A stretch of DNA of 64,000 nucleotides, from the NCBI GenBank assembly GCA_030374765.1, contig JARGXX010000026.1, positions 552,713 through 616,712 on the forward strand, read 5' to 3'. Shown piece after piece: positions 2,679-55,618 of the stretch. Position 1 is the first letter of the stretch. Each line of letters begins with the position of its first letter. The DNA is from Agarophyton chilense (lineage: Eukaryota > Rhodophyta > Florideophyceae > Gracilariales > Gracilariaceae). The translations under genes and the position numbers were made by a program. The notes beneath the pieces were generated by a model, which ran no database searches, was not told the DNA's origin, and worked only from the letters and a program-made list of their open reading frames with translations.

Positions 2679-2726
2679 TATGAAGAGCAGTCGTACGCAG
2701 AGCGGGAGGGCTGTTGGTCTGGTGTC
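2679..2726 (-). repeat. 48-bp copy of the U5 end of Copia gamma's 5' LTR (candidate outer end of its 3' LTR)
   Basis: It matches 9386-9433 in the same orientation at about 43 of 48 positions, sharing CGTACGCAGAGCGGGAG and GCTGTTGGTCTGGTGTC. At 9386 the match abuts the Copia gamma primer-binding site, so it is the LTR end there. Its copy here would therefore mark the outer edge of the 3' LTR. Similarity stops sharply after 48 bp, so a full LTR pair cannot be shown. Confidence 0.45.
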
Positions 2727-2975
2727 TAGTATGCACTCGCAACGCGCTGTGGAACCGAGGAAGGTGGAACGGACGCAAGGTGTCCCCTCTTGCTCCTCTG
2801 TCCCCAGTGTCTCGGGGTGGAGCAAGAGTGAGGTTTAGTATGCAGCGCCGGCGGCATTGTGCCAGGTGGCAATCGTGTATTGTATACCCCCCGCCTTGGT
2901 GCGATACAATAAAACTTGATTTTTTGGAGTGCGGCCAAATGCTCAAGAACTTCCATTTTGACACTAAGGGCGATA

Positions 2976-3204: not shown

Positions 3205-4554
3205 ATGGCTCGCACTAAACAGACGGCTCGCAAATCTGTTGGTGGAAAACCCCCACGGCGCCAGCTTGTAGGCAAAGCGGCAATTATCACAAGCGAGACA
3301 CATCTTGACCAATACATCAACAAGAATATTTTCAAGCTTCTCTGTTCCAAACCGCAGCGCGGCGTGAGAAAAATCTATGCAACCACATTCGAGGGCAGCA
3401 ATAAGCTCGTGCGATTTAGCGAAAACGAAGCCATTATTTTGCTCGGGAGCAGGATAACTCATTGTATCCGGCAGTTTCGTGGCACGCAGTTGGCAGGGTT
3501 GATACAGTTCCGATTAAGTCTTACAGAGGCTTTGGATGACGACGACGATCCCGATACCAGTATTGAGTATAACGATTGGATGATCGAGGAGGTATGGTTG
3601 TCAAGAGGAGGTCGTGGTAGAATTAAGGACCAATCTTTTGCTCTAGAGCATGGCACTAACGTAGTGTGGCGCATCGATATGCATACTTTTCGAATCGCGT
3701 ACAGTCAGGGAGTTGGCGGTATGGCGTCGTGGAGTAGGGTGACGTATGATGGCGAAGGAGCAGAATGAACCTTTCATTGGGGAGGTAAGGACCGGTATGA
3801 AGCTATCGAGAGCATTCTGGCTACTTGCAGCGCAAAACCAGGTCAAAGGCTCACTGTGCTCTAACCCTAAGCGCGGATTCCATCGTCGGGCGTCCACAAT
3901 TTCCATCTCCGTCACACATCCGTGCAGTTTCGCGACGAGACACTTTTGTGCCTTGAAGTTTCTTTAAGTAACGCATTAGATCTCACAATTGGGTCCGAGA
4001 AGGCTTCTGAGTGTTGGGCGTAACTCGTCAATCGCGTTAGGAAGAACGCAGACGATAATGAGATGTACTTGAATGCCGTTGCAGGTCTTGGGTTTGGTGA
4101 TATTCTGGAGCTTAAATATTGGAACCGAAAGACCCAAAGGGAGGTCCGAGGAAAGTTTCGGGACCTCAAGGATATGCAGAGGTTTATTCGGGAAAAGAGC
4201 CGTGTTATAAGCCACGATTACCTTCGCGATGCGACTGGACACCGAGAAGAAAACTTCGATTTGGATAACTTTCGCGATAGCGGAATGGTCTTCCCTGCCA
4301 GACTTCAGGAGATTGACGGATACCTGCATGCGATTTGCATAGATGGGGAGCGCAACATGATTATTGATCCAGTGGAGAAGTATCACATGGATGTCACGCA
4401 GGTTGCTCTCGAGTCCTGTGTTGGATCAGACCGTTCTTTTAGTCACATTGCGGACTGTCGCATAGTGTGCTTGCTCTCAGGGAGGAAGGATGGGAAACGC
4501 GCTCGCTGCGGGAAGAAACGTCGTCACCAAGAAGGTTCTTCAAACAGGGTTTGA
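3205..4554 (+). CDS. Histone H3 N-terminal tail fused to a non-histone protein (possible 297-nt intron, or four in-frame stops)
   Basis: The ATG at 3205 begins MARTKQTARKSVGGKPPRR, followed by QLVGKAA. This copies H3 residues 1-24 with substitutions T11V, A15P, K18R, A21V and T22G, and keeps R2, T3, K4, R8, K9, S10, K14, R17 and K23. After that there is no histone fold. The next part is unrecognised and includes a DDDDD run, and the end is a basic Lys/Arg tail. Frame 1 is kept to 4554 but is crossed by TGA 3766 and TAA at 3862, 3868 and 4021. All four stops fall inside a possible intron from GTATGA (3744) to TTAG (4040), whose removal would leave about 350 codons. The C-terminal half has LNAV (about 4072), then LHAIC followed by IIDP. 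This loosely recalls papain-like peptidases, but no catalytic Cys is seen at the expected place. The stop overlaps the convergent Copia gamma stop by 15 bp. The tail identity is secure; the function and whether it is spliced are not. Confidence 0.7.
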
Positions 4555-5166
4555 AATCTTTGCCATATTAGATCCTAAGCCTTTAGGGTTCCATGCCCCA
4601 AGATGGTGGCCCATAGTAGATATGATACTTTTTCTGAGTATTCCTTGAACAATAGCTTGGTTCAACTTGGTAAATGAATGATTATTGGCCTTTGTTAAAG
4701 CGTCGGCTAAGTTGACACTTCCCGCTATCCAACGCATGGAGGATATGTTTCCAGCTTCGAAGGAGTAACGGAGGCGCGACACGGTAGGGCGCAATCGGTA
4801 GTCTCTGCATTCATGAAGGGTGGTGATCGTTGAGTGCAAACCAAATGAGTCGACGTCAAGGACGAGAGATCCGAAATCCGATGCAAGAACTTTCATGCAT
4901 TCCCTAATTAGTATGGATCTGTCTGCGGATTCTGCCGCCGCAAGAATTTCAGAACCAAATGAACTAAAGGATATGCGTCCTTGCTTTGCGCTATGCCAGT
5001 CGACGATGTGGTAGGAAACCTTCCCACCTTGGGAGAAGGCGATGCCACTGATGTAGCCAGTTTGACCGTAGGATGATTTTCCAGTGCTGGCGTCAGAGAA
5101 CGTCACTATGTGGCAAGCGTTCATTTTATCTGATACCATCGCGGATCTCGGATCCATATACTTCAC
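4540..5166 (-). pseudogene. Copia gamma RNase H domain
   Basis: About 208 codons are open. The four catalytic acids are recognisable: Asp in FSDASTGKSS, Glu in SEILAAAES, Asp in VLDVDSFGLHS, and Asp in NLADALTKAN. The last is the typical Copia C-terminal signature. This is the best-preserved part of gamma and could itself be intact, but the upstream RT is broken. It ends at 4540, facing the H3-tail gene that ends at 4554. Confidence 0.8.
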
Positions 5167-5169
5167 GAT

Positions 5170-6200
5170 CGGACGTAGCTTTAAGACGAGGTTGAGGATC
5201 TAGTTTGCCTGCAGACGCGCATCTCTGGGAGCAGCTGCTGCATGAAGCTGGCAGCATCCGCGGCTTGAGGCAGCACACCATGGCGGAGATAGTTGAGTTT
5301 TCCAGCAAAAGACTGGTTCTATCAGACTTCTTGTTGGGTGCATAGATCCTCAGACTGCTTCCGCCTATCCCTCAAGATCGGAATGGGGGCGAGCTTTTCA
5401 ATAAACTCTGCCTTGGAGATCTCGATCGAGAAGTCTTCATATTTCCGAATCCAAAGGCGGCTGAAGATAATGTCGTTCTTGAAGAGTGCCCTGCCAACCT
5501 TTGAGCGAGCTGAGAGGGCCTAAGAGAATTTGTTCATCTCACTCTTTGGTCCGGCAAGGGTAAGATCGTCCACCAATTTGGCCTAGAGTAGAGATATACA
5601 TCCATGGTTGTCAGAAAATATGAACATCTGTGGAACACCAGGGACAGTACGGAATCCGTAGTCGCATAACCATTCCTCGATGCATAGCTCCCAGAGACGA
5701 CCGGACTCTACTACGCCATATGCTGGCTTGAGTAGCTTCTATACTTCTTCTACGAACTGTGTCCATCTCTTTGGAGGCTGCATGTATATATCTCGTTTAA
5801 GGTCGCCTGATTGTAGATACGCTCTAGAGATGTCAATGCTTCCAAGGGTGAGGTCTATTAAAGTTGCGACGGAAAGCAGAAGTCTGATGCACGTGAATTG
5901 AGCCGTAGAAGAATCAAATCGAATTTTCCCCTTTGGGAATCCCTGTTCCCATGGGGTACCAGTCGGCACTTAAGCTTAAGCTTACCACTCTCTCCACCGA
6001 ACTGCGCCACGAAGAAGTGATGGGAGGAGATGATATTTGCATTACGCGGGAGTCTTTTGATAGAGATCGGCCTGTATGCCTCGGCGGCACAGTAGTTTCT
6101 CTTCTCTGCTTCGATGGCCTTGTCGGTTATTCATCGCGGGTCGAGCTGTAGCTCCGCTTCTGTGGCTGGTAGATCTCCAATGATCTTCTTGATCTGCTCG
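5170..6200 (-). pseudogene. Copia gamma reverse transcriptase
   Basis: At 5969-5739 the reading has SIDISRAYLQSGDLKRDIYMQPP. This is the conserved Copia RT block holding the first catalytic Asp and the 'AFLQ..RDVYxxPP' signature. Past a stop it continues with KPAYGVVESGRLWE and then AKLVDDLTLAG, where VDD is the active-site pair, at about 5570. Several in-frame stops and frame changes to 5170 show decay. Confidence 0.75.
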
Positions 6201-6205
6201 AGAAT

Positions 6206-7420
6206 TCATTGCCCCGAAGACATTAGATTTTCGCCTACGGTAAGGAACCTAAGCGAGGTGTCACCAACATCTCTGCAGAGTTGAGGGTTCCCGACATCTA
6301 TTGAGGGTGCGTTTACAGCCGTTGCGTCTTCCTTTGACGCGAAGGAGGATGAAAAGAACGGATGTAGAGACCACAAGTTTGGTTTGTCCGATATGTTTGG
6401 GTCGAAAGTCAAAGGGTCTTGTATATTCGGCACAGGGTAGTCTGTGATTTTTTCATCTTGGAGGGGCGGAAGAGAAGAACAATCGGCATCATTCTTTTCT
6501 TCAGGGACTGGGATCGGTTCTTCTTGGGCGTTAGTGTCCGTTAAGGACAAGTATCCAAGCTCCTGTTTGTCCAGTTCATGTAAAAGGGATGAACGCGGGA
6601 CTAACCTTATGTCCTCGTAAGCGATCTGATGCTTTGGTCCCTGGAGATTTTTGCTCGGAGAGACCGATAATATATGGTCGGGAGTAGTGACCACGCATGA
6701 CTTGTACCAGGCACCATGTTTTCCAACTCTCTTAAAGACATATACCGGAGTGGTTGGTGCCAGAAGGTGTTGTGATAAAGGATGCCATGGCTTGGTACAA
6801 AGTAAGGTGTGTACGGCACGCCTAGAAACTTGATCGTGGTAAAAAGCAAGGAGCTTCTCTGGTAGCATCTGCTTGGGTAACCCAGAGAGAGAAGGAGTGT
6901 AGCCGTGAACAAGCTCGAAGCTGCTGAATTACTTGTTAGCATACAGCACATTCTTCAGGAATGTGGCTTTGGAGAGGATCTCAAAGTCTGTGACATACAC
7001 TTGATGAGTTTCACTCAGATGAGGTTCGTCGAGAAGGAGCGTTTGGAAAAATTCGTTATTGAACTCTGGGTCTCCTGATGATTTCGATGGAGGCCCAAAC
7101 ACATCAAACAAATGAAAGACAATCATGCGAGCGGTTTCAGTCATATCCCTTGAAGTCATCAAGACAGTCACGGAGAGACCAGTTGATACATCCTTCATAT
7201 ACAGAATGGGGAGGTTCCCAAACTTGCGTATGAATAGGAAATCCACTTCACGGTGCTCGTTGAACTCACCCAGTATCCTCTTGAGTGATATCTTTCGAAA
7301 ATGTAATGGGCGGCCAGACCTTCTGCATTATGGGCAATAATTGTAGGCTTGTTCGAGCTCAACAGCAAGTGTTCGATTTAGGATCCCGCCTTGACTGCAA
7401 AGCTTTTTCATGTCCTCGGT
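6206..7420 (-). pseudogene. Copia gamma integrase and the integrase-RT linker
   Basis: The core begins at 7246 with MDFLFIRKFGNLPILYMKD. It continues with the segment holding GDPEFNNEFF, the second catalytic Asp in an RNase-H-like fold. From 6951 it continues as a C-terminal reading with QMLPEKLLAFYHDQ, then a long stretch rich in Glu, Pro and Ser (LGYLSLTDTNAQEEP), which is the acidic linker common before RT in Copia polyproteins. At least two frame changes are needed. The upstream zinc-binding HHCC part is not convincingly visible. Confidence 0.6.
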
Positions 7421-7432
7421 GGAGAGGTGGGA

Positions 7433-8005
7433 CTAACAGTGAGGCTTTGTGGCAAAGTGGCGGGCATGGGTCTGATCCATGCCGTCATTTCCAGATAGGT
7501 TGGCGACCGGATTAGGATTCTGAGAGAGAAAGGAAAAATGAGAAGGGAAGAAAGATTTGAACGACGTTTTCATCGAAGGAACGACGAATAAGTGTGTTCG
7601 GCGGTCATTATCTTCTCCTAGGACGTAAGTTGACAGAACTGCGTCATCCCGATAGATTCCGACCGAAGCGAGCACTACGAGCGTGTTGTCTGAACCCATA
7701 AAATCCGAACGTGACACTATGTCGTTCCCCAGTAGCAGAGGACCGTCGCCTTCCGTAAGGCATAACTTAATGTCTGCTTCCACATTGTTGAGTCCTTTGA
7801 TCTTTAACCTCCAAAGTGCAAATACCAGTTTTCGATTTGAACAGTCTGGGCCAAAACCGTGATAAAAGGGGTCACAGTCGAAGTCTTTAACGTGAAATTG
7901 GATGCCCATTGCAATTGATAGTGCAGCTGCGGATTTGATGCCTCCCACATTACGAGGACAACCGATGTCAATGATGGCGTCAGGATCTCTCGTACCACTA
8001 AACAA
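7433..8005 (-). pseudogene. Copia gamma aspartic protease region
   Basis: The motif IIDIGCPRNVGG near the start corresponds to the protease active site D-T/S-G in this Copia lineage, with Ile in place of Thr/Ser. About 60 residues later, CLTEGDGPLLLGNDI matches the second conserved loop, where the hydrophobic-Leu-Gly pair packs against the active site. The T-to-I change would probably abolish activity. It follows gag after a short gap in another frame. Confidence 0.65.
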
Positions 8006-8031
8006 ATCAAAAGGCGCCCCATTTCATGACT

Positions 8032-9358
8032 TTAGGCATGATTGCGTTTCGATGGGCCGGCGCCTGGCGTAAATTCCGCGTTAGGTCCACGGTTACGTTT
8101 TCTGGGGGCATCGTTTCTGGGATGTATTCCTCCTCGACGAAAAACTGTGGACCTACCGTCTGAATCGTTTCGTTGGCGTTCGAGCTTCCTTTTCTTTTTC
8201 AGAAATGAGGGACTTGGGCAAAACTCATTGCCATCCATGTGCTCGGTATTACCACAATCGAAAAAGGACGACGACTTTCCATTTTTTCCGGCCTTAACAT
8301 CGGTGCGTTTCCTCTTCGCTTTGCTCGGTTGGAAAGACGTGGTTGATGCATTTCCCTCCTTCCTATTTCCCAAGCGAGTTAGTACGCTCTGGTTGGGTTG
8401 AAAAAATGAAAATAAGGCAGTTTGTTCTTTCTGACTCACGATGTTTTCAAGTTCTTCCCTTGTACAGTGAGCAACAAAGCTCGAATGGGTAAAAGAAAGA
8501 TTCCGTATAACTGTAACGGCTTCACCCAGGTTTAGACGGCATCTGCGGGAAGGTTGAAGGAGCTTGTTGATAGAAGAAGGCGGGCTGGTCTTTGAGTGAG
8601 TGTCTGTAAGATGTCTCTCGAACTCAACGACCGCTTCATTAATCTTTCTCTTGGTTACCAAAAGCTTTGCCTTCGTCATATTTTGATTATCGCGCCTCGA
8701 AATGTTAAGGTGGGGCCTCGATAGCATTTCACAGAGGTTATTTACGGACTCCTTAATCTTCACAAGATTGATGTGATGCTGCGTATCCCAGTGTAAGTTC
8801 CACTACTCGTGCAAACTTCGGGGAGAGAGATGAGTTGTAGTTTGGCATTAATCAACGTCCCCTCACTCAAAGATGCATTGTTGAGTGGCGTTATCGCCAG
8901 AATTTCTCCAACCTGAGACGAGGATGAAAGTCCACCGTGCAGGAAATGACCGGCAGCCAAGCCGCGGAAACGTGATACGAAGCTAGCCAGAGGCTCATCC
9001 TTGCGACAACGGCAGTTTGTAACACGGTTGAAGGAAGAAATAAAACTAGAAACAACAGAAATTGGAGGGTCTACTGCGACAAGATCAACGATTTCGAATA
9101 CCTCTTTCACTTGGTTCTCTCGCTTGTAATCAAGAATTCATTTTCCTGGGCTTCGTCGACCAATGATTTTTGAGCACTAGGTAAAGCTCTTTCGTACAGC
9201 TTTACACCTAGAGTTGCAAAGATTGTTTGGTAACGACGATCGATGCCCTTCTTGGCAGCAGTAGAAATAGTATCTACCCATTGACAAACATTGCGGCGCC
9301 ATTCTTGTAGATCATTTGTAGGATCAAACTTTGGCGGGTCTGTCGGATTGAAAGACAT
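8032..9358 (-). pseudogene. Copia gamma gag
   Basis: The likely start is the ATG at 9358 (MSFNPTDPPKFDPTND), 13 nt after the primer-binding site. An upstream in-frame ATG at 9382 overlaps that site. The reading reaches TGA at 9107, continues one frame over (VKEVFEIVDLV) to about 8760, and moves on through 8763-8032. The last part is Lys/Ser/Arg-rich, with a degenerate zinc-knuckle-like FDCGNTEHMDGNEFC. Gag forms the particle and binds RNA. The one-base frame change at ~9110 and the missing knuckle cysteine point to decay. Confidence 0.7.
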
Positions 9359-9371
9359 AACAGCTCCTGAC

Positions 9372-9385
9372 TTTGGGCCCATAAC
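9372..9385 (-). other. Copia gamma primer-binding site (internal initiator-tRNA-Met type)
   Basis: On the minus strand it reads GTTATGGGCCCAAA. Drosophila copia and related elements prime from the anticodon region of initiator tRNA-Met (GGGCCCAUAAC), and this is the exact complement of that stretch. The same GATGGGCCCAGCA or TTATGGGCCCAGC motif occurs at the equivalent place in the other three Copia copies in the window. Confidence 0.75.
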
Positions 9386-9579
9386 TATGGGAAGCACTCG
9401 TACGCAGAGCGGGAGAGCTGTTGGTCTGGTGTCGTCTGTCGAGTGGCCGCTTACGGAGGAGTGGAGGACACTAGTAGTGAGGTACCCGATTCCTTGCGGA
9501 TCCAACTACAGTCTCTCCTGCGCCGCTACGTTTCCAAGAATTCAGTTTTCTCACACTGTACCCAGCACTCGACAACACA

Positions 9580-25692: not shown

Positions 25693-26476
25693 AGGGAGTC
25701 TTCCCTTCGGGAGAGGCGTCCTCAGAGTTGAGGCTGACGACGCCCGAGGCGCCGATGCCTCGCTCCCCGGTGAAAAAATCCTGACAAGGAAGGACACCGC
25801 AGACGCGGACTCTAAACACCTCGATGTTTTGCGTCGACCGTGGATACGGATTAGAAATAACCGGATCCCGGATAGAGTCTTGGTAATGGCCAAGCGTAAC
25901 TACAAGGTTTACGCTGACCTTGGTCTGCACACGCAGTTTATGGTGAGACATCTCACTGTCCTGGATACAGGTGCTGGGCCGAACTTTATTGTGGAATCGG
26001 TTTTACGCCCGCCATTGCGGTCACTCATCCGTTCTGAAACGGTACCCGACGTGTCGGACGCCAATAACAACACGTTGAAAACGGCTGGTGTGATCGACCT
26101 GGTCGTCAGGCTAGGGCGGATGGTGGTTAAACTAACTTTTATTGTGTGCCGCTCGCTGGCCGCGCCAGTTATACTGGGATGTGACTACTGCGACAGGTTT
26201 GTCGACGCCATCTGCCCGCGCCTTAAGCAGGTGGAACTTGAGGACGGATCGACCGTCCCCATTGTTCGTCAACCGCTGAAGCGGGCATCGAGGACACACG
26301 TTCCTCTACCAGCTGCGCAGGAACCCACACCGGCGAACCGGGATTCTACGAAGCTATGCGTTGCCTCGTCAGTAACCATACCCCCGGAGAGCCAGGTTAT
26401 GGTTTCAGTCAATTCCGTCAACACGGTCTTCGGGTTGTTCAGCCCTTGCCCTCGTTGTACGAGAAATTTCAGTTAA
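25628..26476 (+). CDS. Ty3 beta aspartic protease region
   Basis: Open in frame 2 from 25,628 (overlapping the end of gag, which is in frame 1) to TAA at 26,476. The active site is VLDTGAGPNFIV near 25,965. The later APVILGCDYCDRFVDAICP is the hydrophobic-Leu-Gly loop of retropepsins. The protease cleaves the Gag-Pol polyprotein. Its end overlaps the pol frame by about 120 nt. The pol-frame reading HGLRVVQPLPSLYEKFQ is the better continuation, so one base was probably gained or lost near 26,435. The N-terminal ~90 residues before the protease are unassigned. Confidence 0.85.
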   Translation: MHSLLRKSGLRPTRILYREKNRGSLPFGRGVLRVEADDARGADASLPGEKILTRKDTADADSKHLDVLRRPWIRIRNNRIPDRVLVMAKRNYKVYADLGLHTQFMVRHLTVLDTGAGPNFIVESVLRPPLRSLIRSETVPDVSDANNNTLKTAGVIDLVVRLGRMVVKLTFIVCRSLAAPVILGCDYCDRFVDAICPRLKQVELEDGSTVPIVRQPLKRASRTHVPLPAAQEPTPANRDSTKLCVASSVTIPPESQVMVSVNSVNTVFGLFSPCPRCTRNFS

Positions 26477-29400
26477 CCGTTGCGAACGGAATCGTGCAAG
26501 TCACGCCGAATTTCCCTTTCAGGGTGTTGGTTGCCAATCTGGGAAAGGCTCCCCAGACGCTGGCAAGGAACCAAGTCATTGGGTCTGTGACGCCGCACCC
26601 GCTCGCGATGCTCCCTACAAAGGTGACGGCTGCCGAAGTACTCGGAATAACTCCCTCTACCGAGGATGGTCTTCCGGTATCCGGTGCAGAAACCTCCGGG
26701 GAGGCACAGCAGTTGGCGCTCGATAAAACCGTCAAGACGGATGCATTTCCGACCTCGTCGGTTCCCACACCTGACACCACGGCACAGCCTACGAGCTACG
26801 ATAAGATAGACCCGATCAAGGCCCTCGAGGACCTGGACCTGAGTGACGTACCGGTCTCACACCGGGACCGCTTACGCGGAATGCTACGCGAGTTTACCAC
26901 AATGTGGGACGGCTCACTGGGTGAGATCAATACAACCGAACATCGGATAGACTTGCTACCGGACGCACGTCCGGTTGCACAACCCCCTTACAGGGCGGGA
27001 CCAAAAGCTCGGGAGGAGGAAGAATTTCAGGTGGACAAGATGCTCCGTGCTGGAGTCATCGAGCCCGCCCAATCTCCTTGGGCTTCACCGGTGGTGCTGG
27101 CCCTCAAGGCTGACGGCACGTGGCGGTTTTGCGTTGACTACTGCCGCCTCAATGCCGTCACCGTGAGGGATACCTACCCGATCCCGCGCATGGACGAGTG
27201 TATCGACTCGCTCGGGGACGCTACCGTGTTTACGGCTCGGGATGCTAACTGGGGCTACTGGCAAGTCCCAGTCCGGGGAGAGGACCGAGACAAAACTGCG
27301 TTTGTTTGCCACTCGGGTTCGTACCGTTTTAAGCGGATGCCGTTTGGTTTAACCAATGCACCGGCCACCTTTCAAAGGGCAATAGACATACTGATGTCGC
27401 GTTTCAAGTGGCGCACGTGCCTTGTCTACTTGGACGACATCATTGTCTTTTCCAGAAACCTGGACGATCACCTGACCCACGTGCGGGACGTGATGACAGT
27501 ACTGCGAGACGCAGGAATAACCCTCAAGTTGAGGAAGTGCGAGTTCTTCACCGACACGGTGAAGTATCTCGGGCACGTCATCCGTCCAGGACGGTTAATG
27601 ATCGAACAAGTTCGTATCAAGTCCCTCTGCGAGGCGAAGGAGCCCCGTACTCAAACGGAGCTCCGATCCTTTTTAAATCTGGTCAACGTCTATCGACGGT
27701 TTATACCGAGTTTCTCGGATATCGCCGCTCCGCTAAACGCGCTACTGCGGAAGGGCCAGCCACCGAAGCTTGCGCCATTTACCACCGATCAGTCGGAATC
27801 TTTTCGCTCCTTGATTAAGGCAGTTACGACAGCTCCCATCCTATCCTTGCCCAAACCTGGGCTTCCCTACTCCATCGACACCGACGCCAGCGACCACCAG
27901 GTGGGCTGCGCACTGTTCCAAACCACCCCCGAGGGGAAACGAAAACCAATTGGCTATTGGTCCCGCACGCTGAACGTCCACGAGCGCAACTACTCGGTCT
28001 CCGAGAAGGAGTGCCTCGCAGTGGTCTGGGCGCTATCAACTCTGCGCCCATACCTCATGGGCGTTCATTTCACCGTGTACACGGACCATGCCTCGTTGAG
28101 GTGGCTGCTGAACATCGCAGATCCTTCTGGCCGCTTAATGCGGTGGCGCCTCCGCTTGGCGGAATTCGACTTCGAGGTCGTCTACAAAAAGGGTGTCCAG
28201 AACACCCAAGAAGACGCCCTCTCTCGATTACCTACGACAGGTGAAGCACTTGCCGACCCGGAGGTCGACGAGATCCCGTGCTTTACCTTGGAAGGGGAAA
28301 CACCGACGGAGTCGGATTGGCCCGAATCCGGGGAAGACACCATGGAAATGGATGAGCTACTCGCAGCGCGCGAGAATGAAACACCCGTACCCGGGACTTT
28401 TGTACCCATCTCCACCGAGGAGATGATCCGAGAACAGTTCGGCGACCCGTTCTGCACGCGCATACGGGCCCGCCTAAACGGTGGAGAGGACCTCCCGTTC
28501 GAGGTAAACGACATCGGTTACCTCGTCCGGACTGTGGACCACCGATCCCAGATCGTGGTCCCCCACACCCTGCAAACCAGGGTGCTCCACCTCTCACAAT
28601 ACCCGACCCTCGGGGGACACTCCGGTGGGAGAAAACTTTATCTAACCCTGCGAAGGGACTTTTATTGGCCTGCTATGGCGGTTGATTGCTACGCTACGGT
28701 GCAGTTCTGCACCCAATGCGCAAAGAACCGGGTGAAACTCCGGAAGCACTCCAAACGGATGAAACTTTTCCCCGCAAGGGCGCCCCTCGAGTTTGTCGCA
28801 ATCGACATTCTCGGGCCTCTACTCAAGACGCGCAAGGGAAACAAGTTCCTCTTGGTTATCACTGACCGCTTTTCGAAGCTGGTGCGCACCGTACCTTTAC
28901 GGAAGATCACTGCTTTCACGGTTGCGAACGCCTTCGTTACGCACTGCGCGTTCGTTTATGGCCCTCCGATAGAGGTTCTATCCGATAACGGTAAGCAGTT
29001 CGCCTCTAAGTTCTTTCAGGACGTCTGCCGCATCCTCGACGTCAAGAACCTGTTTACTACCACCTACCACCCGCAAACAAACGGGCAGATGGAACGCTTC
29101 AACCGCACCCTACTCGCGTCGCTACGCTCCTACGTATCCGATCACCCAATGACGTGGGACATTTATTCTGATGCTATCACCTACGCCTACAACACGCAGG
29201 TCCACCGGACAACCGGTCTGACTCCCTTCGAGCTTGTGCTCTCCAGGACACCCCCGCCAGTGGCGGTCGAACCCCAACACAGGGTCAACTCTTTCCCATC
29301 CGTGGGCAAATACCGCCTCAAGTGGAAGAACTGGATTACCAAGCTCGTACCGATCGCCCGGAAGTCCATGGAACGTGCCCAGGCCGCCTACAAGCGGGAC

Positions 29401-30972
29401 TTTGATAACCGCCTACGCGGACCACTACCGGCACCGCCCAAGCCGGGAACCTACGTGTTCGTTCGCCGGGAGTACTACAACCCCCGGACCGACAAGCCTC
29501 ACAAGCTCTCGCCTGTCGCTGAAGGTCCGTTCCGGGTCGTGTCCTCCCTCCCCGGCACCGTTGTGGTGGACAAGAACGGCGACCACGAACGTCTTTCACA
29601 AGACCGCATCGTAGCCGCCCCACCGCCGCAGGCGGAAACCGCATCAGCCCCCGTCGAAACGGCCTCGGATACCGCGGGTACAACGGTAGCACCACGCCCC
29701 GCCATGGTACCGCACCCCTCACGGGGTCTCTCCGATATACCGACTTTATCGGAACCACCGGCAATGCCGGAAACACCTGGCCCTCGCGGCCAGCTACACT
29801 TACGGCCGCCGCGCAGCGGTATTTATACCCGCCATGCGGTTAGCCCACCATCAACCGTCCCTCCGTCTAAGGAGGGGGAGGGGACCCGCTCAATCGCGGA
29901 AGCATCGCCGTCGCAACGGAAGTTTAACCGGACACCCCGGGCAAGGCCCCCGAGCGGGCAACCGGCATCATCGCCGGACGCCAATCCGCTCCCGCGGGAC
30001 GCGGCGGTCAACCCGACCGCCACGCAACCCCGAAAGGGGAACCAAGGCGCTCGAAGACCCGAAGCCGGGAAGCGAGACCCTACGGACGCTCCGCATCGCG
30101 TGGAAGCAACCGAGGGCTCCCCGCACATTCGCGGTCGCACACCGAGCGTTTCGGTCGATACCGGTACTCCGGCGGGCGCTGCGCAAGCAGGTTTAGCGAG
30201 CCACTCCGTTGAGAACGGTACGAACCCCATGGGGGAAAAAGGGCGCGACGACAAGTCGAAAACCGCCTCCCTTGCCGAACAATCGGAGCCAACCGTCCGC
30301 GACGGCCCGACCACCCGTCCTCAAGGTCACGTGACCCGGGCGGGAGATCGGACCAATGGGCACCCGGCATCCCGGTCATTGGCTGACAGCCACCCCGCGG
30401 AGGCGGACCGCCAGGACGGTGAACCACTCACCGCCCGCGGCGCACTGCACGGCGGAAACTGCCCACCAATTGGAACGCTGCATGCCGCAAATCAAGCGGA
30501 GGCCTCCGGCGAACCGTCACCAAGACGGAAGGACCCCCGCAAACTCGCAGTAAGAGCGGATTTCAGGGAAGCCCCTACCGCCCAGCGGGAACACAACCCG
30601 GCCGCGCCGGCAACTTCCGCGAAGCGGTACGGCAGCCCCGGCAACCCGGCAACAACCGCAGAGCGGAATGACAAACCGGGTGACCCAGAACAGGCGACGA
30701 CGAGCCCAGCACCACGCGGCGCTGAGGCTCGGGTCACCACCACCTGGCAAGGCCGGCATGTTTACGTGCAGGAGTACGTCCTCGACCGAATCGTCGGACA
30801 TAGCTACGATGAGCACGGGGTGCTCCAGTACCGGACCCGCTGGTACGGATACGGGCCGGAGTGGGACCCTCCAGAGCCCATCGAGCACCTCCCGCGCTCC
30901 GCGGTAATGCGATACCACCGCCTTGCGGGGACCGCACTCCCAGCAACGCTGGTAAACGCCCAAGAGGGATAA
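26356..30972 (+). CDS. Ty3 beta pol: RT, RNase H, integrase and chromodomain
   Basis: 1538 codons counted from ATG 26,356, although it is probably translated as a Gag-Pol fusion. RT: catalytic VYLDDIIVFSR near residue 357, preceded by RMPFGLTNAPATFQ. RNase H: DTDASDHQVGC (about 510), KECLAVVWAL, YTDHASLRWLL and EDALSRL supply the four acids. Integrase: HSGGRKLYLT...CTQC zinc end (about 755-790), then Asp in FVAIDILGPL (about 815), Asp in LSDNGKQF (about 876) and Glu in NGQMERFNRTL (about 910). A GPY/F-like segment follows (LSPVAEGPFRVVS). Then come roughly 370 residues of Pro/Arg/Gly-rich disordered sequence, and a C-terminal chromodomain (about 1470-1525) with YRTRWYGYGPEWDPPEPIEH. The chromodomain would guide integration to marked chromatin. 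No stops interrupt it. Confidence 0.95.
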   Translation: MRCLVSNHTPGEPGYGFSQFRQHGLRVVQPLPSLYEKFQLTVANGIVQVTPNFPFRVLVANLGKAPQTLARNQVIGSVTPHPLAMLPTKVTAAEVLGITPSTEDGLPVSGAETSGEAQQLALDKTVKTDAFPTSSVPTPDTTAQPTSYDKIDPIKALEDLDLSDVPVSHRDRLRGMLREFTTMWDGSLGEINTTEHRIDLLPDARPVAQPPYRAGPKAREEEEFQVDKMLRAGVIEPAQSPWASPVVLALKADGTWRFCVDYCRLNAVTVRDTYPIPRMDECIDSLGDATVFTARDANWGYWQVPVRGEDRDKTAFVCHSGSYRFKRMPFGLTNAPATFQRAIDILMSRFKWRTCLVYLDDIIVFSRNLDDHLTHVRDVMTVLRDAGITLKLRKCEFFTDTVKYLGHVIRPGRLMIEQVRIKSLCEAKEPRTQTELRSFLNLVNVYRRFIPSFSDIAAPLNALLRKGQPPKLAPFTTDQSESFRSLIKAVTTAPILSLPKPGLPYSIDTDASDHQVGCALFQTTPEGKRKPIGYWSRTLNVHERNYSVSEKECLAVVWALSTLRPYLMGVHFTVYTDHASLRWLLNIADPSGRLMRWRLRLAEFDFEVVYKKGVQNTQEDALSRLPTTGEALADPEVDEIPCFTLEGETPTESDWPESGEDTMEMDELLAARENETPVPGTFVPISTEEMIREQFGDPFCTRIRARLNGGEDLPFEVNDIGYLVRTVDHRSQIVVPHTLQTRVLHLSQYPTLGGHSGGRKLYLTLRRDFYWPAMAVDCYATVQFCTQCAKNRVKLRKHSKRMKLFPARAPLEFVAIDILGPLLKTRKGNKFLLVITDRFSKLVRTVPLRKITAFTVANAFVTHCAFVYGPPIEVLSDNGKQFASKFFQDVCRILDVKNLFTTTYHPQTNGQMERFNRTLLASLRSYVSDHPMTWDIYSDAITYAYNTQVHRTTGLTPFELVLSRTPPPVAVEPQHRVNSFPSVGKYRLKWKNWITKLVPIARKSMERAQAAYKRDFDNRLRGPLPAPPKPGTYVFVRREYYNPRTDKPHKLSPVAEGPFRVVSSLPGTVVVDKNGDHERLSQDRIVAAPPPQAETASAPVETASDTAGTTVAPRPAMVPHPSRGLSDIPTLSEPPAMPETPGPRGQLHLRPPRSGIYTRHAVSPPSTVPPSKEGEGTRSIAEASPSQRKFNRTPRARPPSGQPASSPDANPLPRDAAVNPTATQPRKGNQGARRPEAGKRDPTDAPHRVEATEGSPHIRGRTPSVSVDTGTPAGAAQAGLASHSVENGTNPMGEKGRDDKSKTASLAEQSEPTVRDGPTTRPQGHVTRAGDRTNGHPASRSLADSHPAEADRQDGEPLTARGALHGGNCPPIGTLHAANQAEASGEPSPRRKDPRKLAVRADFREAPTAQREHNPAAPATSAKRYGSPGNPATTAERNDKPGDPEQATTSPAPRGAEARVTTTWQGRHVYVQEYVLDRIVGHSYDEHGVLQYRTRWYGYGPEWDPPEPIEHLPRSAVMRYHRLAGTALPATLVNAQEG

Positions 30973-40015: not shown

Positions 40016-40882
40016 TCAGATGACTTCTTGCACCTCCCGCCGCACTGCGGTACATCTTGCGTCGACAACCGGCCCGTCGAAACTCAGTGGTCGATACCGT
40101 CTTCTCTCCCGGCTTCTGTGACTCACTGCAACATTTCCGATAGGACTTTCCCCAAAGGCGAATGGTGACCGAGTACCCGGTGTCATTGAACCCAGACCGT
40201 TGCCTTGACTTCTCCGCACGCTGTGCTGTCGACTCAGAGCCATATTCCTCGTGGACGGTGACATGGGAGAAACAAAAATCGATCCGATTTGTTTTGGGGA
40301 TCTTTGTGTCTTCATGATGCGCATAGCACTCTGCAATAATTTACGATCAATATCCCCAAACATTTTCTTTTGTTCCCTTCCCTGACGGCGGCTTGCCCGT
40401 CTGGAAAGGTCATTCAAACCTTCTGAAGCTTGGTCGTCTGCCTTACTTGCTCGCAATGCTTCCGCTAATCTCTTTGCATCTCGGCCTTCAATATCTTCGC
40501 CCGTCAGTACGATGAAGTTGCTCATGTAAGGCACAAACACTTCGTTATAGAAGCGAATGATATCGCCTGTCTCTTCAGCCGTCGATTCCGGTCGTGGCCC
40601 ACTATCATCTGAAGCATCTTCCGCCAACAAATGCCCGAAATCTCCGAGAAAAATGTTATGGGACACTGGTGGAGAATTGCTCCGAAATGTGGGATCACTT
40701 GTGTGCTCCAATTGATTGTAGTGCCACACGATATGGCGGAACTGCAGTTGGATATGTTGGATCTTGGCCACGCCATCTATCACAAACAGGATGATCAAGT
40801 CAATATGTCTGTTGACTGTCAAATTCCATCTGCACCACAGAGCATACTGCACGCTTTTCCACACTGCCGAACGAAGGTTGGT
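40016..40882 (-). pseudogene. Truncated retinoblastoma-like gene copy (pocket B and C-terminus only)
   Basis: It duplicates codons of the plus-strand RB gene from NLRSAVWKSVQYALWCRW to the stop. It keeps the pocket-B core (NRHIDLIILFVIDGVAKIQH, then GDIIRFYNEVFVPYMSNF) and the S/T-P-rich tail. Compared with the gene at 52.3-55.6 kb it differs at roughly nine residues and has no frame breaks. It has no N-domain or pocket A and is fused at 40,882 to an unrelated sequence, so it cannot encode a working RB protein. An ATG in the fused sequence (MLSLSCLRSPDL) would give a short chimera. Confidence 0.85.
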
Positions 40883-40895
40883 TTGGGTGTCCAAA

Positions 40896-41267
40896 TCAGG
40901 GGATCGCAGGCAAGAGAGAGAGAGCATTGCTAAGCAACGAGTGCGCGCGGTTGGCAGCGTGCCGGGGCATTATGCGGGCGTACTGCTCGTCGCGCAAGAC
41001 CGTGAGAAGGGTTTCGAGTGCATGGTTGGGTTTGTTGAGCAAAGAGACGGCGTCCATGACGGCCCACATGAGCGTGGTGTGATGAGCGGTGAAATTGGGC
41101 TGATCGGATGCGCGCAGGGACGAGAGCAAGTCGAAAAGTAGGGTGGCGACTACTTCAAAGTGATTTTCGTGAGGGTGATGGAGCACGGCAAGAAGCGCGG
41201 AAAGGATGGCGTGCGTATGAATGTCGACAGCTAGTGACAGGATGCCATGTAATGCGCACGCGAGCAT
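40896..41267 (-). pseudogene. Fragment of an unknown helical protein gene
   Basis: 123 codons open from ATG 41,267 (MLACALHGILSLAVDIHTHA) to 40,896. It is Leu/Ala/His-rich with regular amphipathic spacing (LLFDLLSSLRASDQPNF, LETLLTVLRDEQYARIM), as in alpha-solenoid (HEAT/TPR-like) proteins. It ends 14 bp from the duplication edge, so it is probably the broken end of a longer gene. The family is not identified. Confidence 0.4.
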
Positions 41268-52348: not shown

Positions 52349-55300
52349 ATGCGCTGCTTTCCATTTTCCAGGTATTCTCGGGACACTGAATTAGCGTTTA
52401 CGTGTGCTGTTCTACCCCCTCCACCGCCCCCTCTCACATACAGGCTCACTCGCAACACAACCACCAACAGCTCCAGCAACCACAGCAACCGCACTCCCCC
52501 CCGGCGGATTGTATCGACCTCCTCGTTCAAAGCCTCGCCCTTCCCATCCGTATCGCTAATTTGGCGCACACCATCCACAACTCGGCCGAGCCCCGGCCCC
52601 CGAATCTATACACCTCCGCCTGTGTTCTTTACCTCACTCCGTCGCCTACCGCGCCGATCAGATACCCAGCTTCCCCTCACACAGTTACTCTCCGCCGCCA
52701 ACGCCCAAGTCCGTCACGTTCCGGAGTTCATACTCAACTCACGCTCCCCCGAGGACCTTTTCAATCGCAACATGCGGCCCCCATTCCCAACACCATACGG
52801 TCGTGCATCGCACACCGCCTTCATGGTTGCAGCAAACGTTTGGAGAAAGCTACGCTTTCTCTTTGGTCGCCGTTTGCTTCACAATCACCCCTCTGTTTCA
52901 CGACCCTCGCATGGCTCTTGTTCATCATTGCAAAGGCCTCGCTCTCATCTCCGTCCGGGTCCTGGTACCACCATTTTAAAACCTACCATTTGCTGCTCGC
53001 CTGCCTCACGCAGTCCGGTCTCATTGCAGCATACGATCCTGAGAACGCCGTATTTCGTATCACATGCGCCGTGTCGAGCGAGTTGCACCAATACCAACGC
53101 ACAGTTGTAACTCTCCTACCCCCCACTATCCTCACTCGGTTATCGTTCTTTCAGGCTACTGAAGATGATATCGATGCCCATGGCAAGTCAATAGATGAAG
53201 TGTATGCACAACAACTCACCGCTGTCGATGACCGTATTGTAAGCGACGAACGTATCTTTCTTCACGCGCCACAGCTTACTGCCGTTGCCGCTTTACCACT
53301 CTCGCTCCCCTTACCACGTCAGTCTTCATGCGCTGGAACATCAACTTCGTGGCAAAGCCTCCGCCCAGTACAAGCATCCGTCGCTGCACCGTTCAAACGC
53401 AACAAGGACCCGTCTGTGCCCGTACGATCTCCGGCCCAGCCCACTACCCACGCAGCACCATCAACGCCTAAAGCCTCATCACAGCCTTCCACACCTCTCA
53501 ATCGCAAACGTCGTATGGACGGCGAAAACCAGTCTGCAGCACCTACCCCACGCCCCCGACATCTTCGGAAGGCTTCCGACTTTGCCGTCACCCCATCATA
53601 AGCCCGCCCGCCCACGCCGCGTCGCACGCGCACTCAATCTGCCATGCATTCGTCACTGTCATTCCAGGATCGCTTCTCACGCTATCTGTCCACTCACCCT
53701 GATGCATTGGAGGCACTGGCCACAGTAGCTGTCGTTACGCCGCACTGTACGACTATCGTGCCTCCTATACCTCCATCATCAAACATTGCTCTCACTCCCG
53801 GCACTGACAACAATCGATCTGCAACATGGATCAGTGAGCTGAAGCAGAAACGACCAGAAACTCGAAGCGAAACGTGTCTCACATGCCCGCCAGAAAGTGT
53901 GGCTATATCGCACGATCTGAGAAGGGTCACTGGGGGTGGTCGCCCATTATACGCTATCATTGATGTTGGCAGACGGTACTCTGATGCCTTGTGACGTCAT
54001 TACGGATCTGAATAATTTCCGGTACAAACGTGAAGCTCTGGCTATCTGTTTCTCAACCATCGAAGGTATTCTCGAGAAGGAACTTCGTCGGCTACGCGAA
54101 CAGCCGGAAAAGTTTAATAGCAATGTACTTCACAACTACATCCTACACAAAAGCTTTCTCACTTTCGCGTGGGATACCGCTGTCTATGCCTAGGGTAGAA
54201 GGGATCTTCACGTTTTCACAGTTGCCTATCGTGCGTTCAATGTATCACCCTTTGAGCTTACGAGGCGCTGTAAACATTCTATACCCTTGTACCACAGATG
54301 CCACATCGCTTGGTTAATCATTCGAATAGCTGTGACGCTCGTATTCTAGAATGGATGGCATGGAGACATGACTCGCCTCTGGTACGAGTTCTTCAAGCAT
54401 GTAGTCGAGATTTCCTTTGTACGCAAGATGAGCAGAAACCGTTCTAACCAAAAGAGAAATTTGTCGGAGCGAGTGTTGGTGAACACACAGATGTCCGACC
54501 AGTCACTAGAACATAATGAACAGCCAGAAAGTGTAGAACAATCCCCGATTACGCCGCAAAAGCAGAAGATCGAAGAAGGACAACGTATAGAAACAAAGGC
54601 GATGATCACACTAAGGTTGAAAGAAATGGGGCGTCCGGAACGACTGTACGGAGATGTTGAAGCCAGAGCAAGAGTTCTAGACTTCTTTTTTGAAAAATTG
54701 TTTGCCCTGGCAAGCACTAGAATAGGGGATTTGTTAGGAAGACTTGGCCCCACCAACCTTCGTTCGGCAGTGTGGAAAAGCGTGCAGTATGCTCTGTGGT
54801 GCAGATGGAATTTGACAGTCAACAGACATATTGACTTGATCATCCTGTTTGTGGTAGATGGCGTGGCCAAGATCCAACATATCCAACTGCAGTTCCGCCA
54901 TATCGTGTGGCACTACAATCAATTGGAGCACACAAGTGATTCCACATTTCTGAGCAATTCTCCACCAGTGTCCCGTAACATTTTTCTCGGAGATTTCGGG
55001 CATTTGTTGGCGGAAGATGCTGCCGATGATAGTGGGCCACGACCGGAATCGACGGCTGAAGAGACAGGCGATATCATTCGCTTCTATAACGAAGTGTTTG
55101 TGCCTTTCATGAGCAACTTCATCGTACTGACGGGCGAAGATAATGGAGGCCGAGATGCAAAGAGATTAGCGGAAGCATTGCGAGCGAGTAAGGCAGACGA
55201 CCAAGCTTCAGAAGGTTTGAATGACCTTTCCAGACGGGCAAGCCGCCGTCAGGGAAGGGAACAAAAGAAAATGTTTGAGGATATTGATCGTAAATTATTG

Positions 55301-55618
55301 CAGAGTGCTATGCGCATCATGAAGACACAAAGATCCCCAAAACAAATCGGATCGATTTTTGTTTCTCCCATGTCACCGTCCACGAGGAATATGGCTCTGA
55401 GTCGACAGCACAGCGTGCGGAGAAGTCAAGGCAACGGTCTGGGTTCAATGACACCGGGTACTCGGTCACCATTCGCCTTTGGGGAAAGTCCTATCGGAAA
55501 TGTTGCAGTGAGTCACAGAAGCCGGGAGAGAAGACGGTATCGACCACTGAGTTTCGACGGGCCGGTTGTCGACGCAAGATGTACCGCAGTGCGGCGGGAG
55601 GTGCAAGAAGTCATCTGA
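52349..55618 (+). CDS. Retinoblastoma-family pocket protein (RB/MAT3-like), several frame changes
   Basis: N-terminal RB domain: LPLTQLLSAANAQVRH (frame 2, ~52,680), WLLFIIAKASLSS followed by KTYHLLLACLTQSG (frame 1, ~52,910), and DDRIVSDERIFL (~53,240). A Pro/Ser/Thr spacer follows with TP sites and NRKRR. Pocket A: YKREALAICFSTIEGILEKE, then LHKSFLTFAWDTA (frame 2, 54,030-54,190), FNVSPFELTRRC, and DARILEWMAWRHDSPLV (frame 1, 54,298-54,447). Pocket B: NRHIDLIILFVVDGVAKIQH, GDIIRFYNEVFVPF. The C-terminal tail has many S/T-P sites, as in CDK-regulated RB proteins. RB represses E2F-driven S-phase genes. Reading it whole needs about five frame changes and passes a TAA at 53,599, so there are small introns, sequence indels or decay. 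54,368-55,618 is intact. Start chosen: first ATG ahead of the conserved part. Confidence 0.8.

Follow-up and report, generated by a model that had tools for sequence, protein, structure and literature searches.

The stretch analysed here, hereafter the window, comprises 64,000 nucleotides of the red alga Agarophyton chilense (assembly GCA_030374765.1, contig JARGXX010000026.1, positions 552,713 to 616,712 of the forward strand). It contains a decayed Ty1/copia long terminal repeat (LTR) retrotransposon with an accessory gene between the RNase H (RH) region and the 3' LTR. The gene runs antisense to the element, and its protein begins with 26 residues of the histone H3 tail. The presence of this histone-tail sequence in a non-histone protein is beyond chance, and the gene, tail included, bears the signature of purifying selection in variants that several copies have in common and of neutral decay in private ones. 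The sequences suggest that a mobile element may have kept an H3 tail to interact with the host chromatin machinery. This may be the first retrotransposon-encoded histone-tail mimic; none was found in the literature searched, which left most subscription papers outside.

The H3 tail and the element that carries it

The ATG at window position 3205 opens a plus-strand frame (3205-4554) that begins MARTKQTARKSVGGKPPRRQLVGKAA; read from the ATG it gives MARTKQTARKSVGGKPPRRQLVGKAAIITSETHLDQYINK... In the window copy no in-frame ATG precedes it, and 22 sense codons separate it from the preceding in-frame stop; among four copies inspected, one (L021) carries a further in-frame ATG, placed four codons before this one. 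In-frame stops lie at codons 188, 220, 222 and 273 (nucleotides 3766, 3862, 3868 and 4021). A working gene in the window is not supported, the copy being decayed. The splice considered in the first-pass annotation (3744/4040) is abandoned as well. An intron between the open reading frames (ORFs) 3205-3768 and 4063-4554 is ruled out, the gap being the four stops of a single frame, and splicing is not needed, since the sister copy L009, with a natural open frame of 377 amino acids (aa), aligns over 3205-4335 as one stretch (82% identity). The stop at codon 450, with which the window frame ends at 4554, is common to 10 of the 15 copies that reach the gene end.

As first proposed, an H3 tail stands at the start of the protein and no histone fold follows. 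Residues 1-30 of L009 match H3 in PDB (best E 1e-5), and the best 60 of 131 distinct sequences at E<=10 are all H3, H3 peptides, H3 variants or CENP-A/Cse4. Pfam scanning of pieces of the gene recognised no histone fold beyond the tail, and the element is not among the 13 genome matches to histone Pfam families. When the genome was searched with a 35-aa H3 tail, 40 rows were obtained and sorted by eye into three H3 genes (E<=5.2e-14), 32 places of the accessory gene (E 4.9e-7 to 0.107, five near-identical duplicates included) and five weak rows. A 32-aa H4 tail, used as a control, found two places only, which are taken to be H4 genes.

Conservation of the tail was counted in 31 copies. This set excludes L056, which has the sequence type of L026 (likewise L025, L027 and L028), L063, L050 (wrong frame picked) and L018, L022 and L024 (locus without tail). 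The claim that all modifiable positions are kept needs correction: K4 (28 of 31), K9 (26) and K23 (29) are kept, and also R2 (25), R8 (26), S10 (25), K14 (22) and R26 (22) are found in most copies; R17 is present in 16 copies, with K in eight others. Position 18 is K in none, and T11 is replaced by V (19) or D (8). The non-basic residues A1 (28), Q5 (28), T6 (25) and A25 (28) are retained to a similar degree. The match to H3 ends after R26, and K27 is found in none of the 31. A very diverged copy, L061/L035, reads MGRTKQTARKSTG and is nearer to H3 at T11; around LTR, leader and tail it has stretches 65-78% identical to other copies. In a midpoint-rooted tree of the N-domain (27 rows) the deepest branches are the tail-bearing L055 and L053.

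A 187-aa piece of the protein gave 89 matches in the source genome (80 Mb, 135 contigs), which were merged by eye into about 54 places, two H3 genes apart; 32 of these have the H3-like start. For 20 fetched regions and the window (21 loci), the suspicion of a retrotransposon-borne gene was borne out. In 15 loci the gene is found 3' of the Copia RH and in the opposite orientation, at similar spacing, between pol and 3' LTR; in the examined stretch of the other six no RH match (E<1e-8) was found. The element measures about 7 kb, with the domain order gag-protease (PR)-integrase (INT)-RH in L011-L014, L023 and others. The reverse transcriptase (RT) of L014 is of the RVT_2 type (6.9e-20); a scan of L021, a second Copia piece, gave no match. 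Direct LTRs of about 210 bp, with pair identities of 79-95% and termini TGTGCAATACACGA...CCCATA (by eye), flank eight of the 21 loci, three of which (L025-L027) resemble duplicates of one insertion. Six loci were inspected by eye for 5-bp target site duplications (TSDs), which are exact in L013 and L023 and have one mismatch in L011, L014 and L026, L012 giving no call. By INT before RT-RH, RVT_2-type RT, LTRs and 5-bp TSD, the element is a Ty1/copia LTR retrotransposon. The gene is an antisense accessory ORF of the aORF-3R kind by its place, orientation and presence in most copies. The 15-bp overlap with pol seen in the window is no fixed feature: in L014, the one copy checked, the last codon of the gene (2501+1350) and the RH frame (ending at 3875) do not overlap.

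Selection on the tail and the body

Selection and codon use were measured in 30 copies, L061 also being dropped, and many rows are partial. In the true frame the pairwise ratio of nonsynonymous to synonymous substitution rates (dN/dS) is 0.57 for the tail, 0.40 for the N-domain, 0.50 for the middle and 0.63 for the C-domain, compared with 0.90-1.15 in the two shifted frames. Over the whole gene, variants found in at least three copies have a normalised nonsynonymous to synonymous ratio (N/S) of 0.35 (199 synonymous, 239 nonsynonymous; frame +1 control 1.02). Singleton variants look neutral, both over the whole gene (1.13; control 0.94) and in the tail alone (1.05; control 1.37). Shared variants are constrained and singletons are not; during the active life of the element the protein was therefore preserved.

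Measured over its 26 codons, the tail has a ratio of nonsynonymous to synonymous polymorphism (pN/pS) of 0.64 (bootstrap 0.46-0.90). No 26-codon window in frame +1 (420 windows, lowest 0.70) or frame +2 (160 windows, lowest 0.66) is as low. Each of the 30 copies shares 12-21 of the 26 tail residues with the host, and of the 530 identical residues 145-209 (27-39%), depending on the host H3 gene compared, agree with it in codon as well; between host H3 genes the same-codon rate is 11-14 of 26 (42-54%). Because N/S is low for shared variants and the same-codon rate with host H3 is low, we conclude that the protein sequence was preserved as the underlying DNA diverged, the pattern expected when selection acts on a protein in an active element and decay follows. 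Selection at the protein level supports the view that the tail mattered to the element.

Origin and possible role of the tail

The body of the protein has relatives in other elements. From residue 1 onwards the L009 ORF matches an ORF that lies antisense in a Ty3/gypsy element (L031-L033; BLASTP 8e-18), the domains of which are RVT_1, Integrase_H2C2 and rve in L032. This gypsy ORF is open in the close copies on contigs C4 and C92 (97% identical) and has one stop in C3 and C135. One transcript-derived protein in EukProt matches the L031 version with 98% identity and is therefore probably of the same species; it begins 25 residues downstream of the gypsy ORF's ATG. Counting Met, the gypsy N-terminus shares M1, A2, T4, Q6, R9, R18, G23, A25 and R27 with the tail. 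Out of 20,000 shuffles, one reached the score of the L031 N-terminus against the element tail and 17 against host H3; for the more diverged gypsy copies L068 and L066, respectively, the element-tail score was reached by 110 and 174 shuffles and the host-H3 score by 332 and 463. Five 276-aa versions of the gypsy ORF were also seen (C96:53278, C88:100307, C77:644552, C100:127847 and C71:2334910); these match residues 1-129 and 323-424 only and hence are without the Cys motif.

A third version is the antisense ORF of another Copia lineage (L042), whose C-domain is 33% identical to the gypsy one over its end. The C-domain family is large: at E<=0.01 the L042 piece finds 85 matches in the genome. 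In two members, L064 and L065, whose start codons were not located, no H3 tail was seen by eye, and neither relative whose start was read, the gypsy ORF and L042, has a clear one. In 3.5 kb of seven other sampled Copia lineages, inspection by eye found no antisense ORF of at least 110 aa. On the simplest reading of these sequences, an existing accessory protein acquired its H3 tail in one lineage, or that lineage was the only one to retain it.

We lean, with modest confidence, towards regarding the accessory protein of this decayed Copia element as a mimic of the H3K4/K9 module that engages host readers or writers. Removal of Met would expose a free ARTKQTARKS N-terminus, and the protein would enter the nucleus by means of its basic C-terminus. 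Host writers, readers or erasers could then modify or bind the tail at K4, K9, S10, K14 and K23. Chromatin factors would be titrated or redirected, most likely with weaker silencing of the element as the outcome; alternatively, the same contacts of the tail might tether the element. With H3 similarity stopping at R26, the Polycomb-type site K27 would be omitted. According to domain searches the host genome encodes SET and chromo domains, i.e. H3-tail machinery. More tentatively, and as a possibility we rate at somewhat short of even, this lineage may have grafted the H3K4/K9 tail module onto an existing antisense accessory protein to make a soluble decoy against H3-tail-directed silencing, and orphan antisense ORFs would thereby be anti-silencing factors.

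Several observations weigh against the mimic. Shared variants in the tail have an N/S of 0.62 (17 synonymous, 27 nonsynonymous; frame +1 control 0.93), which is weaker constraint than in the N-domain (0.32), and the pN/pS interval of the ten core residues extends to 1.04. The 23 positions that agree with H3 have a pN/pS of 0.59 (0.41-0.88) and the three differing ones 1.06 (0.59-2.11), which is the right direction without clear separation; an earlier split of 21 against five positions (0.54 and 1.06) was partly circular, as the commonest residue at A15 and R17 is still the host one, and was repeated strictly as 23 against three. L063, outside the 31 copies, has a ruined tail, and K9 or K14 is lost in several old copies. 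Finally, no relatives of the L009 ORF at E<=0.01 were found among 4594 candidates from 5.8 billion proteins, against one transcript-derived hit for the gypsy homologue. In a second search with residues 1-60 of L010, 32 candidates were scored; there were 12 matches at E<=10, ten with and two without a histone Pfam domain. Neither search establishes the absence of other H3-tail fusions. Three of the 12 matches were inspected: P0003 is an H3 carrying an insertion, in P0006 a long N-terminal extension precedes the H3 sequence, and in P0011 other sequence comes after 36 H3 residues. P0006 and P0011 are tentatively taken for gene-model errors.

It is possible, though we think it unlikely, that the tail is merely a basic nuclear-localisation or nucleic-acid-binding N-terminus of H3 descent, for which contacts with readers and writers are irrelevant. 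The homologous gypsy ORF has such a basic N-terminus (MAVTRQRVRAQRTRRV...), with K4 changed to R and K9 lost, and in more distant gypsy copies the resemblance to H3 is no greater (by eye; two of them scored by shuffling). However, the non-basic tail residues A1, Q5, T6 and A25 are retained in the element as well as the basic ones.

We give a rather low probability to tethering without a decoy, whereby the tail would direct the accessory protein, and the element with it, to chromatin factors and so target integration or expression. Chromodomains read H3, and frames encoding them abound in the source genome. The integrase of chromoviruses bears such a domain (PMC3605345), and some antisense-ORF proteins are nuclear (PMC7264820).

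That the tail is unselected baggage from the capture of an H3 transcript appears improbable. In its favour, in-frame stops are present in 29 of the 30 aligned rows, many of them partial, and L009 has no stops but one gapped codon. Against this, codons are shared with host H3 less often than between the host genes, yet the residues remain identical at 12-21 of 26 positions in the 30 copies, and dN/dS is below 1 in the true frame only. An assembly join to a normal H3 gene, or an H3 pseudogene, was looked for in the other copies and is refuted: the tail stands at its 32 places on many contigs, the copies read share the same body after it and a similar leader before it, and the three H3 genes sit elsewhere.

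Features of the window and comparison with known systems

Table 1. Parts of the accessory gene and of the decayed Copia element in the window
Feature	Position	Strand	Remarks
3' LTR	2679..2886	-	limits set by eye from LTR ends of other copies
Antisense accessory gene	3205..4554	+	449 codons and stop, interrupted by in-frame stops
H3 tail, Met and residues 1-26	3205..3285	+	tail searches, copy counts
N-domain, codons 28-187	3286..3765	+	related to gypsy-family antisense ORF; without Pfam family
C-domain, basic C-terminus	3949..4551	+	tentative papain-like arrangement of Cys (codon 249), His (375) and Asp (388)
RT/RNase H remnant, convergent with accessory gene	4540..5669	-	RVT_2 in L014
Integrase remnant	7010..7606	-	rve 7.1e-5 in L011, below cut-off
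Protease-region remnant	7613..8080	-	assigned by place; L011 without Pfam match
gag remnant, frameshifted	8134..9382	-	
LTR-matching 48-bp remnant, 5' LTR side	9386..9433	-	

By eye, the C-domains of the gypsy ORF and of the other Copia lineage have Cys, His and Asp in this order too. In a set of 15 Copia copies Cys is retained in 13, Asp in 12 and His in eight. A single-sequence structure model (P0002) reached a predicted local distance difference test (pLDDT) value of 35.1, with a sole PDB sequence match at E 1.5. A papain-like protease is tentatively suggested as a lead only, because His is poorly kept among the Copia copies and the structure model failed. Pfam matches to GP11, Peptidase_A17, DUF3857, DUF4820 and Nexin_C were disregarded, being below cut-off or at E>=0.05.

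Adjoining the studied element, fragments at 985-2114 read by eye as plus-strand Copia RNase H and seemingly belong to another element. An open Ty3/gypsy pol frame of 1538 aa with RT, RNase H and integrase lies at 26356-30972 (plus strand), perhaps a young element. The window, which is the end of its contig, further contains two ORFs with a retinoblastoma B-domain (RB_B; 40019-40927, minus strand, and 54368-55615, plus strand). Genome-wide there are 51 RB_B matches, of which 15 fall in frames of 351 aa and 14 in frames of 321 aa, with several pairs about 9.7 kb apart and many on contigs C40-C59, C122, C125 and C126, which reads as an amplified RB-like gene pair. In the chromodomain search 1935 first-look candidates were obtained, and all 150 that were scored exceeded the cut-off. 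SET domains occur beside a DNA N6/N4-methylase domain in a single open frame of up to 1141 aa (e.g. C10:14533-15009; L069:1-1182, one copy read). Of 86 SET matches, 27 score identically (30.1 bits), and of the 15 of these on contigs of known length, all but one are no more than 20 kb from a contig end (14 of 15); another SET group comprises 12 rows with 1043-aa frames.

Antisense genes between pol and the 3' LTR, termed aORF-3R, are described in maize Grande, rice RIRE2, Silene Retand and PvRetro13, and the functions of antisense ORFs in LTR retrotransposons are yet unknown according to the conclusion of that review (PMC7264820). They resemble the H3-tail gene in place, orientation, presence in most copies and suspected nuclear role. 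The present gene differs in its H3 tail, the word histone being absent from the main text of PMC7264820.

In Pseudocercospora fijiensis and its relatives, hAT transposons have captured histone H3, and in Pyrenophora H3 is amplified to tens of copies, many potentially active (PMC6710886). As in the present case, H3 coding sequence lies within a multi-copy mobile element. However, hAT is a DNA transposon, 94% of the copies match the third H3 exon only, and near full-length copies emerge only after in-silico reversal of repeat-induced point mutation (RIP), by which they were inactivated; the part of PMC6710886 consulted describes no fusion protein. In the present case, by contrast, the tail alone is fused to another body within an LTR element and is under protein-level selection.

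The VANC proteins of VANDAL transposons, in which we know of no histone tail, can be likened to the role proposed here in that a transposon-encoded protein counters silencing. They are sequence-specific anti-silencing proteins (PMC5735166, PMC10398659). Viral histone mimics, such as the ARSK motif of influenza H3N2 NS1 (PMC7600879) and SARS-CoV-2 ORF8 (PMC11016114), likewise place an H3-tail motif in a non-histone protein of a cellular parasite; in NS1 it consists of four residues at the C-terminus, in the present protein of 26 residues at the true N-terminus. These 26 residues provide a concrete handle on the function of antisense ORFs, namely which host factor takes the tail. They also offer a natural test, outside the usual model eukaryotes, of what stretch of the H3 tail is important to mobile DNA, here 1-26 without K27.
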